Shown: positions 38,948 to 40,679 of the stretch, in pieces
How the letters are laid out: each line of letters starts with the position of its first letter
Numbering within the stretch: position 1 is the stretch's first letter
Origin: Chitinophaga pinensis
GTDB lineage: Bacteria > Bacteroidota > Bacteroidia > AKYH767-A > OLB10
Reading direction: 5' to 3'
DNA: 44,625 nt
NCBI GenBank assembly: GCA_943332105.1
Contig: CALQOD010000009.1
Span: 1-44,625, forward strand
Translations under genes and position numbers: made by a program
Notes under the pieces: model-generated
What the model was told of the DNA's origin: nothing
What the model saw: only the letters and a program-made list of their open reading frames with translations
Databases searched by the model: none

Positions 38948-39307
38948 ATGACCAAGCAGTATGAAACTGTAATCGTTCTTACCCCTGTATTATTACAAGA
39001 GCAGGTGGAAGAAGCGGTTGCAAAGTATCGTAAATTCCTCTCCGACAACGGAGCCGTAATTGTTCATGAGAACAATTGGGGATTACGCAAGCTGGCCTAT
39101 CCTATTCAGAAGAAAAGCACAGGCTTTTACTTCTTATTCGAATTCCAAGCTGATCCAACAATGATCGCAAAAATGGAAATAGAATACAAAAGAGATGAGC
39201 GCATCATGCGATTCCTAACAATTGCTCTTGACAAACACGCTATCGCGTACAACGAGCGCAAACGCAAGAATGCATCTCAGAAAAAACAAGAAGAATCAGT
39301 ATCTTAA
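38948..39307 (+). CDS. rpsF: 30S ribosomal protein S6
   Basis: The 119-residue small-subunit protein binds S18 and 16S r[25 protein letters not shown], the central [19 protein letters not shown] and [17 protein letters not shown] are family signatures. The start lacks a Shine-Dalgarno sequence. It leads the rpsF-rpsR-rplI operon, gap to rpsR 15 nt; priB/ssb is absent from the gap. Confidence 0.97.
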
Positions 39308-39322
39308 AACTCGAAACCGAAC

Positions 39323-39598
39323 ATGGCAACTACAAACGTAAATGGAGGAATCCGTTACCTCAATCCACCGGCAGCAGAGGTAAACAAAAAGAAATACTGC
39401 CGTTTCAAAAAAATTGGTATCAAGTACATTGATTATAAAGATGCTACTTTCTTAACCAAGTTTGTTAATGAACAAGGAAAAATTCTTCCTCGTCGTTTAA
39501 CAGGAACATCATTAAAATACCAACGAAAAGTTGGACAGGCAATCGCTCGTGCTCGTCATCTTGCATTGATGCCTTATGTAACAGATTTATTTAAATAA
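39323..39598 (+). CDS. rpsR: 30S ribosomal protein S18
   Basis: The 91-residue protein has the S18 core: [37 protein letters not shown] and [14 protein letters not shown]. It partners with S6 near the 16S rRNA 3' end. In Bacteroidota, S18, S6 and S21 have been linked to hiding the anti-Shine-Dalgarno sequence (known from Flavobacterium). No Shine-Dalgarno sequence lies before its ATG. Confidence 0.97.
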
Positions 39599-39606
39599 GG
39601 GAAGGA
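39599..39606 (+). promoter_or_regulatory. unusually good Shine-Dalgarno sequence of rplI
   Basis: GGGAAGGA lies 7 nt before the rplI ATG at 39614 and contains AAGGA, a close match to the anti-Shine-Dalgarno complement. It stands out because most genes here have AT-rich leaders without such a sequence. Confidence 0.6.
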
Positions 39607-39613
39607 CAATAGC

Positions 39614-40060
39614 ATGGAAGTAATTTTAAAACAAGACGTAAAAAACCTGGGCTTTACAGATGAAATTGTAAAAGTTCGTAATGGTTATGGTTTGAACTAC
39701 CTTATCCCTCGTGGGTTAGCAGTAATCGCAAACGACAGCAACAAGAAAATCAATGCTGAAACAGTAAAACAGCGTGCGCACAAAATCAACAAGTTGCGTA
39801 TGGATGCAGAATCATTGGTATCTAAACTAGAAAGTGTAACATTATCTATTGGAGCGAAGGTTGGCGAAAATGGAAAACTGTTCGGCTCAATCACCTCTCA
39901 ACAGTTAGTAGATAAACTAGCTGCCATGGGTTATGAAATCGACAAGAAGCAAATATCGATGCCTGCAGATCATATTAAAAAGACTGGATCATATGTAGCA
40001 GAAATTAATGTTCACAGAGATGTTAAAGCAAAATTAAACTTCGAAGTAGTAGAAGGTTAA
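39614..40060 (+). CDS. rplI: 50S ribosomal protein L9
   Basis: The 148-residue protein has the L9 N-terminal lobe VILKQDVKNLGFTDEIVKVRNGYGLNYLIPRGLAV (landmarks VILKQDVKNLG and VRNGYGLNYLIPRGLA) and the C-terminal GKLFGSITSQQLVDKLAAMG. It binds 23S rRNA and reaches the L1 side. It follows rpsR by 15 nt and is preceded by a real Shine-Dalgarno sequence. A terminator follows. Confidence 0.97.
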   Translation: MEVILKQDVKNLGFTDEIVKVRNGYGLNYLIPRGLAVIANDSNKKINAETVKQRAHKINKLRMDAESLVSKLESVTLSIGAKVGENGKLFGSITSQQLVDKLAAMGYEIDKKQISMPADHIKKTGSYVAEINVHRDVKAKLNFEVVEG

Positions 40061-40077: not shown

Positions 40078-40109
40078 AAGGCAGAGCAATAGCTCTGCCT
40101 TCTTTAATT
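40078..40109 (+). terminator. Rho-independent terminator after rplI
   Basis: AAGGCAGAGC (40078-40087) and GCTCTGCCTT (40092-40101) form a perfect 10-bp stem with a 4-nt loop, then a T-rich tail. It closes the rpsF operon 17 bases after the stop and separates it from efp. Confidence 0.92.
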
Positions 40110-40118
40110 TAAAACAAA

Positions 40119-40679
40119 ATGGCTACAACTAGTGATGTTCATGTAGGAACAGTATTAAGAATTAACGGCGAATTATGTGTGGTTACAGAATGGCAGCACC
40201 GCACTCCTGGCAACTTGCGTGCATTTTATCAAGGTAAAATGCGTAACATTCGCAATGGAAAAATTCTTGAAAATCGCTTTCGCTCAAGTGAGGAAGTTGA
40301 TATAGCTCGTGTTGAGTATAAAATGATGGAATATCTTTATAATGATGGAGATTTTTTAGTTTGTATGGATAAAGATAATTTTGAACAAATTCCAATTCCA
40401 GATTCATTATTTGGTAGTGCCCTCAAATTCTTAAAAGAAGGTATGGAAGTAAAAGTATCCTTTGAAAGTGAAATGCCAATACTTGCAGAAGCCCCAACAT
40501 TTGTTGAAATGGTAATCACTTATTGTGAACCAGGGGTTAAAGGCGATACCGCAACCAACACATTAAAACCTGCAACAATGGAAAATGGTTCAATTGTTAA
40601 CGTGCCCTTATTCGTTGGCGAAGGAGAAAAAATAAAGATTGATACTAGAACAGGATCGTATGTTGAGCGTGTGAAATAA
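40119..40679 (+). CDS. efp: translation elongation factor P, variant modification loop
   Basis: The 186-residue three-domain factor helps ribosomes past polyproline stretches. The OB-fold regions (GMEVKVSFESEMPI, EPGVKGDTATNTLKPA, VPLFVGEGEKIKIDTRTGSY, ERVK) are canonical. The loop that normally carries the modified Lys or Arg reads HRTPGNLRAFYQGK (about 27-40). Asn32 falls where E. coli EF-P has the beta-lysylated Lys34, so the known EpmA or EarP chemistry cannot apply at that residue. No modification genes are in the window. It begins 17 bases after the rplI terminator. Confidence 0.95.
   Translation: MATTSDVHVGTVLRINGELCVVTEWQHRTPGNLRAFYQGKMRNIRNGKILENRFRSSEEVDIARVEYKMMEYLYNDGDFLVCMDKDNFEQIPIPDSLFGSALKFLKEGMEVKVSFESEMPILAEAPTFVEMVITYCEPGVKGDTATNTLKPATMENGSIVNVPLFVGEGEKIKIDTRTGSYVERVK

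Follow-up and report, generated by a model that had tools for sequence, protein, structure and literature searches.

Elongation factor P (EF-P) helps ribosomes join prolines and is usually taught as requiring a costly modification at its tip. In the Lys-type EF-P of E. coli, which is beta-lysylated by EpmA, Lys34 is essential and its replacement is hardly tolerated (PMC6544042). The loop around it is sensitive as well, with 3.8% of the activity left in G35N and 21.1% in Q36S; the residue triad of the Asn type is not among the variants described in the accessible text of that study. Other solutions have been reported. EfpL of E. coli is functional with a tip Arg that bears no modification, and in a docking model this Arg can reach the CCA end (PMC11611912). 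An actinobacterial EF-P subfamily is cited as functional in the unmodified state through the composition of its loop (Pinheiro et al., 2020). EF-Ps with Asn at the tip make up 2.2% of the EF-Ps in genomes without yjeA/yjeK (PMC2821294) and 2.23% of 1166 EF-Ps, where the Pro at −2 is always present (PMC6544042, published in 2019); they were named again in 2024 (PMC11611912).

The efp gene analyzed here is located in a stretch of 44,625 nucleotides (the window), whose nearest named relatives are uncultured Bacteroidia. It is a complete open reading frame with the loop region HRTPGNLRAF (Table 1), and its reverse strand contains stops throughout. All three EF-P domains (KOW-like, PF08207; OB, PF01132; C-terminal, PF09285) score above their cut-offs and cover the whole length of the protein, and the NCBIfam model for efp (TIGR00038) scores 229.7 bits (cut-off 185.8). 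The models for yeiP/EfpL are not passed (TIGR02178, 96.1 versus 264.05 bits; NF003392, 107.2 versus 216). A structure predicted with AlphaFold2 from an alignment of 35 relatives (mean pLDDT 88.4, pTM 0.66) places the seven-residue loop between two strands, with canonical loop length and fold. The best solved fold match of this model is the EF-P of C. glutamicum (6s8z; Z 21.0, rmsd 3.2, 184 aligned residues), followed by other EF-Ps, EfpL and IF5As; the 14 top-ranking rows of the fold list all belong to EF-P or EfpL, and none of their titles contains the name of a Bacteroidota species.

Table 1. Features of the efp locus in the window (positions on the window, residues numbered in the EF-P protein).
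Feature	Position	Strand	Description or basis
rpsF	38948-39307	+	upstream context
rpsR	39323-39598	+	upstream context
rplI	39614-40060	+	directly upstream of the efp locus; ribosomal protein array 38948..40060
terminator-like hairpin	40078..40101	+ (terminator-like on both strands)	in the gap between rplI and efp; 4 such sites versus 1.5 expected in the stretch
efp (elongation factor P, Asn-tip type)	40119..40679	+	186 aa; open reading frame, ATG start, profile matches
beta3-beta4 loop, seven residues (T29-P30-G31-N32-L33-R34-A35)	40203..40223	+	translation; predicted strands 18-28 and 36-43 on either side
Asn32, codon AAC	40212..40214	+	loop tip; at the aligned position other EF-Ps have the modified Lys/Arg
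Leu33, codon TTG	40215..40217	+	position +1
Arg34, codon CGT	40218..40220	+	position +2; proposed stand-in for a modified tip, putative function
Arg53, codon CGC	40275..40277	+	candidate linked site, see text

The earlier note on this DNA had placed Asn32 where E. coli has Lys34 and had concluded that the known modifications cannot occur there. Both points hold. In an alignment with five EF-P sequences of known structure, Asn32 falls without a gap on the Lys of PGKG, and with Asn at the tip the known chemistry on Lys or Arg is impossible at this residue: T29-A35 contains no acceptor Lys for the hypusine type (DHS), and the 5-aminopentanol type of B. subtilis (YmfI) requires a Lys tip. The window protein shares with the Lys-type EF-P of E. 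coli homology over the whole length, the three domains, the seven-residue loop and the P-G before the tip, but has Asn instead of the modified Lys, followed by Leu and Arg. In EfpL/YeiP proteins the loop is lengthened and its tip is Arg, whereas the loop is of ordinary length here and the Arg is found at +2; the likeness is that a loop Arg functions without modification in E. coli EfpL (PMC11611912). The actinobacterial EF-P 6s8z has a Lys tip (PGKGP) and is the best fold match. EF-Ps of the Arg type, which depend on EarP, have Arg at the tip and no Pro at −2, whereas P30 is kept here and the Arg is found two residues further on; the positive charge of an Arg is what they have in common. The Asn-tip EF-Ps tabulated before (PMC2821294, PMC6544042) have the same tip residue, with Asn in place of E. 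coli residue 34, and the Pro at −2, as does the window protein with P30-G31-N32.

For a census of the phylum, all full EF-P genes of 138 Bacteroidota genomes were fetched and their loops read, with one EF-P fragment (genome G122) excluded. The tip is Asn in 62, Lys in 73 and Arg in six of the 141 EF-P genes. Counted by genome, 59 have Asn only, three have Asn and Lys, 70 have Lys only and six have Arg; 59 of the 62 Asn-bearing genomes are thus without any other EF-P. EF-P was matched in 294 of the 296 Bacteroidota genomes searched. A scan of contigs found PGNLRAF in the best matches of 79 of 80 loci. Because some of these loci were selected with a peptide pattern that includes PGN, the fair figure is the census count of 62 of 141. 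Within the window's own family, 22 of 24 genomes have an EF-P match. With PGNLRAF in 20 of the 21 family relatives fetched, Asn32 is neither an error nor chance. The named cultured genera with an Asn tip include Olivibacter, Sphingobacterium, Parapedobacter and Pedobacter.

The earlier note had also mentioned a similar loop in the EF-P of Chlorobi, and this is correct. All 28 census genomes of one family (f18) and both of another (f16) have the Asn tip, and the FMO antenna protein (PF02327), which we take to mark green sulfur bacteria (Chlorobi), was found in all seven genomes tested (five of f18, four of them in the census, and two of f16). A second EF-P gene or a Lys or Arg at the aligned tip, either of which the note would have counted against itself, was not encountered: the source genome (2.77 Mb in 147 contigs, 95.96% complete) gave a single EF-P match, and the window tip is Asn in the alignment across Bacteroidota. 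What the note overlooked is that Asn tips are common in the phylum and are tabulated in print, and that the tip changes together with the residues at +1 and +2.

This linkage was counted in a representative set of 131 rows, two of them outgroup sequences and the other 129 from Bacteroidota. For this set, rows with the same loop were clustered at 80% identity, and re-fetched copies (L182-L199; L, G and f numbers are our labels for loci, genomes and families) and the partial EF-P L316 were left out. A larger tally of 281 rows, which includes repeat fetches, and three further stretches (L331-L333) do not enter the results. Next to an Asn tip, the +1 residue is never Gly (72 of 72 rows) and the +2 residue is Arg in 71 of 72 rows. 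Next to a Lys tip, +1 is Gly in all 53 rows and +2 is Arg in one of them. The Asn loops are of the types NLR (63 rows), NWR (6), NKR (2) and NLH (1); the exceptions at +2 are L031, which combines the Asn tip with His, and L055, which combines the Lys tip with Arg. A tree-aware test with the loop columns removed gave eight starred independent pairs. Joint change with the tip was obtained for +1 in 7.9 of these pairs (median p 0.0078) and for +2 in 6.9 of them (median p 0.0156), and linkage in the opposite direction never occurred among them. With fewer rows the result is weaker, with five starred pairs in the first tree and six in the 100-row tree (median p 0.031 for +1 and 0.0625 for +2). As judged from the sequences, tip, +1 and +2 are exchanged as a set and not the tip alone. 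Arg53 was considered as a fourth linked site, since it is Arg in 69 of 69 Asn-tip rows counted and Thr in the 28 rows with HVKPGKGGAFV. It was rejected: Arg is retained in seven of eight switched rows and may therefore reflect shared ancestry.

The exchange between the two loops happened repeatedly. All trees omitted the loop columns (a 131-row tree; 100-row trees, which omit the long-branched row of family f13; a third tree with nine family rows added), and in all three trees parsimony requires eight switches between Asn and other tips. A single Asn clade is rejected with a p-AU of 3.8e-8 (59 versus 41 rows). In the outgroup-rooted tree the outgroups with Lys tips are located at the base. Several Lys rows are nested within Asn groups: HRTPGKGGAFY, the second gene of Sphingobacteriaceae-type genomes, forms a group (100/99) inside a 100/100 group; HRTPGKGVACY (L172) groups with two Asn rows (98/88); HITPGKGNAIY (L209), the second gene of Sporocytophaga, lies within a 100/100 group of 35; HRTPGKGRASY (L055, genome G128) lies within a 95/90 set of 50; and FRKPGKGGAFF (L069) lies within a 98/88 set of three. 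The group with HVKPGKGGAFV is located inside a mixed clade, which may mean a return to Lys or that Asn arose twice. L066, with an Arg tip, shifted its position between trees and was not counted as a sure exchange.

The clearest case of exchange is the one exception among the fetched relatives of the window's family, L354 (genome G326), which reads HRTPGKGQASY. Because the genes for S18 and L9 are located upstream, as in the window and in 20 of the 21 fetched loci, the locus is the same and the loop is another; the completeness of 88% and the contamination of 7% in this genome call for caution. In this row and in L055 and L172, all with Lys tips inside Asn-tip groups, Phe36 is replaced by Ser or Cys as well (PGKGQAS, PGKGRAS and PGKGVAC).

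Some genomes carry two EF-P genes. Locus L003, from a Pedobacter-type genome, has them in tandem (1501-2058 and 2183-2740), one with the Asn tip (NLR) and one with the Lys tip (KGG), and tandem Asn and Lys genes are also present in L004, L174, L176 and L178, again of the Pedobacter type. A separate check found two EF-P genes in six of 22 genomes. L066 is the second EF-P of genome G196 and reads HVQTGRGGAYY, without the Pro at −2; it occurs beside the Asn-tip copy L020, and an EarP search of this genome gave no match, with silent controls. Family f9 mixes EF-Ps of Asn clades and Lys clades (G049, G146 and G186 versus G076 and G111), pointing to gene replacement or the loss of old duplicates.

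A search for EpmA (TIGR00462) gave partial matches in all 296 Bacteroidota genomes and none above the cut-off of 286.9 bits. The highest match has 261.4 bits in a frame of 509 amino acids and the best one in the source genome 241.1 bits in a frame of 576 amino acids; from the frame length of the matches listed we infer that these are lysyl-tRNA synthetases. Since no genome passes the cut-off, the Lys-tip Bacteroidota sampled are also without a recognisable EpmA. The demand for polyproline synthesis persists: ValS retains PPPN(V/I)T in all 13 genomes examined, 11 of which have only Asn-tip EF-P (the source genome and ten others), and therefore polyproline must be translated.

Taken together, we give a probability of roughly 0.55 to the reading that efp encodes a working Asn-tip EF-P, independent of all known tip modifications, in which Arg34 would supply the positive charge. 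Activity, absence of a modification and the role of Arg34 are what we infer here. That the known tip modifications may be dispensable is supported by conservation, and the evidence points at Arg34 as putative charge donor because this residue comes and goes with Asn32. The Asn-type EF-P would bind to the E site of ribosomes stalled at consecutive prolines, as other EF-Ps do; the Arg at +2 would give the charge, while Asn and the bulky +1 residue may shape the loop. N-x-R and K-G-x would then be two solutions whose mixtures work badly, and a linked exchange at three positions is as expected in this case. Lineages have swapped the N-x-R loop for K-G-x and back via such linked changes. The intolerance of E. 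coli EF-P to replacement of Lys34, as reported in the accessible text of PMC6544042, the exceptions L031 and L055, the raw census link to DHS described below and the presence of YebC stand against the preferred reading.

A wider proposal is more tentative, and we would not give it even odds: P-G-N-(L/W/K)-R may be a second, modification-free chemistry, in which an Arg two residues past the tip replaces the lengthened Lys. Bacteroidota would have toggled between the two several times by coordinated change, and the side-by-side genes in Pedobacter, Desertivirga and Sporocytophaga could each serve a different share of the stalling motifs. The Asn residue itself is already known, and the linked loop class may be new. 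The accessible text of PMC6544042 gives the tip count and does not describe the linked +1 and +2 residues, the repeated exchange or the share in Bacteroidota; a description of the triad or the exchange was likewise not found in the accessible parts of the open-licence literature searched (preprints excluded).

The near invariance of the +2 Arg next to Asn tips would also fit an arginine-directed enzyme that is not yet known and that modifies Arg34, comparable to the rhamnosylation of the tip Arg by EarP, with the site moved by two residues. Chemistry of the EarP type on a loop Arg exists (PMC6544042), but P30 is kept, and the equivalent Pro in E. coli EF-P blocks rescue by rhamnosyl-Arg (PMC6544042), which makes this reading unlikely. 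EarP (PF10093) was matched in none of 16 genomes including the source genome; 14 controls were likewise silent, so that this says little.

A loss or weakening of polyproline rescue in Asn-type EF-Ps, with ABC-F proteins and YebC taking over, would be in line with the essential tip Lys of E. coli (PMC6544042), with the YebC gene, a possible helper, in the source genome and with the second, Lys-tip EF-P that some lineages hold beside the Asn-tip one. Such a loss is quite improbable, since P-G-N-x-R is held across deep lineages without drift, nearly all Asn-bearing census genomes have this EF-P alone and the Asn-only genomes examined keep the PPP of ValS.

A modification of Asn32 itself, such as a glycosyl group on its amide, has little in its favor. 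Other EF-Ps are known to be modified at the tip and the Asn is invariant within its class, but N-L-R, N-W-R and N-K-R are excluded by the sequon rule for N-glycosylation, and a candidate enzyme was not identified in this analysis.

The source genome contains one divergent member of the DHS family. The protein is far below every DHS cut-off, and the best model is homospermidine biosynthesis, also below its cut-off. The gene is located at 1456-2430 of L330, with an open reading frame upstream and a glycosyltransferase-like one downstream (names from reading). DHS chemistry requires a Lys. The suggestion, raised in print for Lys- and Asn-type EF-Ps (PMC6544042), that a DHS-family protein is the modifier agrees with the raw census, in which all 62 Asn-bearing genomes, 42 of the 70 with Lys only and all six with Arg have a member of the family, but is very hard to sustain and was rejected, since the loop has no Lys, the link vanishes on the tree (three starred pairs, no difference in 2.7), the Asn-tip genome G279 has no DHS match, and the DHS-like genes that accompany Asn tips differ widely in similarity.

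The gene neighborhood was considered as a functional clue and rejected. In 20 of the 21 fetched family loci efp follows rpsF-rpsR-rplI, but among 169 EF-P loci of more than 2 kb, a set with some repeat fetches, L9 was seen in only six. Two of these six are the window itself and one is the genome of L102, fetched again; the order is thus a local arrangement. In E. coli, a link between L9 and growth with deficient EF-P has been reported (PMC4399890).

If the preferred reading of a working, unmodified Asn-tip EF-P is true, a loop of plain amino acids bears on what EF-P modification is for. It would explain how polyproline is handled in a phylum without EpmA, and expression work would gain an unmodified EF-P that can be used as it is. 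The question lends itself to testing, given the repeated exchanges and the culturable Pedobacter in which N and K genes are paired.

Further loop types were observed in the phylum. All six census genomes of family f3 (Bacteroidia; L246, L258, L265, L271, L275 and L278) have an Arg tip in the loop (E/Q)NKTARAAAKV, without P-G. These EF-Ps resemble the TARGAA of E. coli EfpL (PMC11611912), yet have an ordinary loop length and score below the yeiP cut-off; no EarP match was obtained, and the EarP control was silent too. Many Lys-tip EF-Ps (L231-L244 and others; families f4, f5, f7, f10, f22 and f24) read PGKGP, as in 6s8z, and are possibly unmodified too, with no EpmA above the cut-off. The EF-Ps of family f13 (L285-L288) are very divergent, with the loop HHTPGNLRAMV, 28-31% identity to a Lys-type query and a very long branch, and were possibly acquired from elsewhere.
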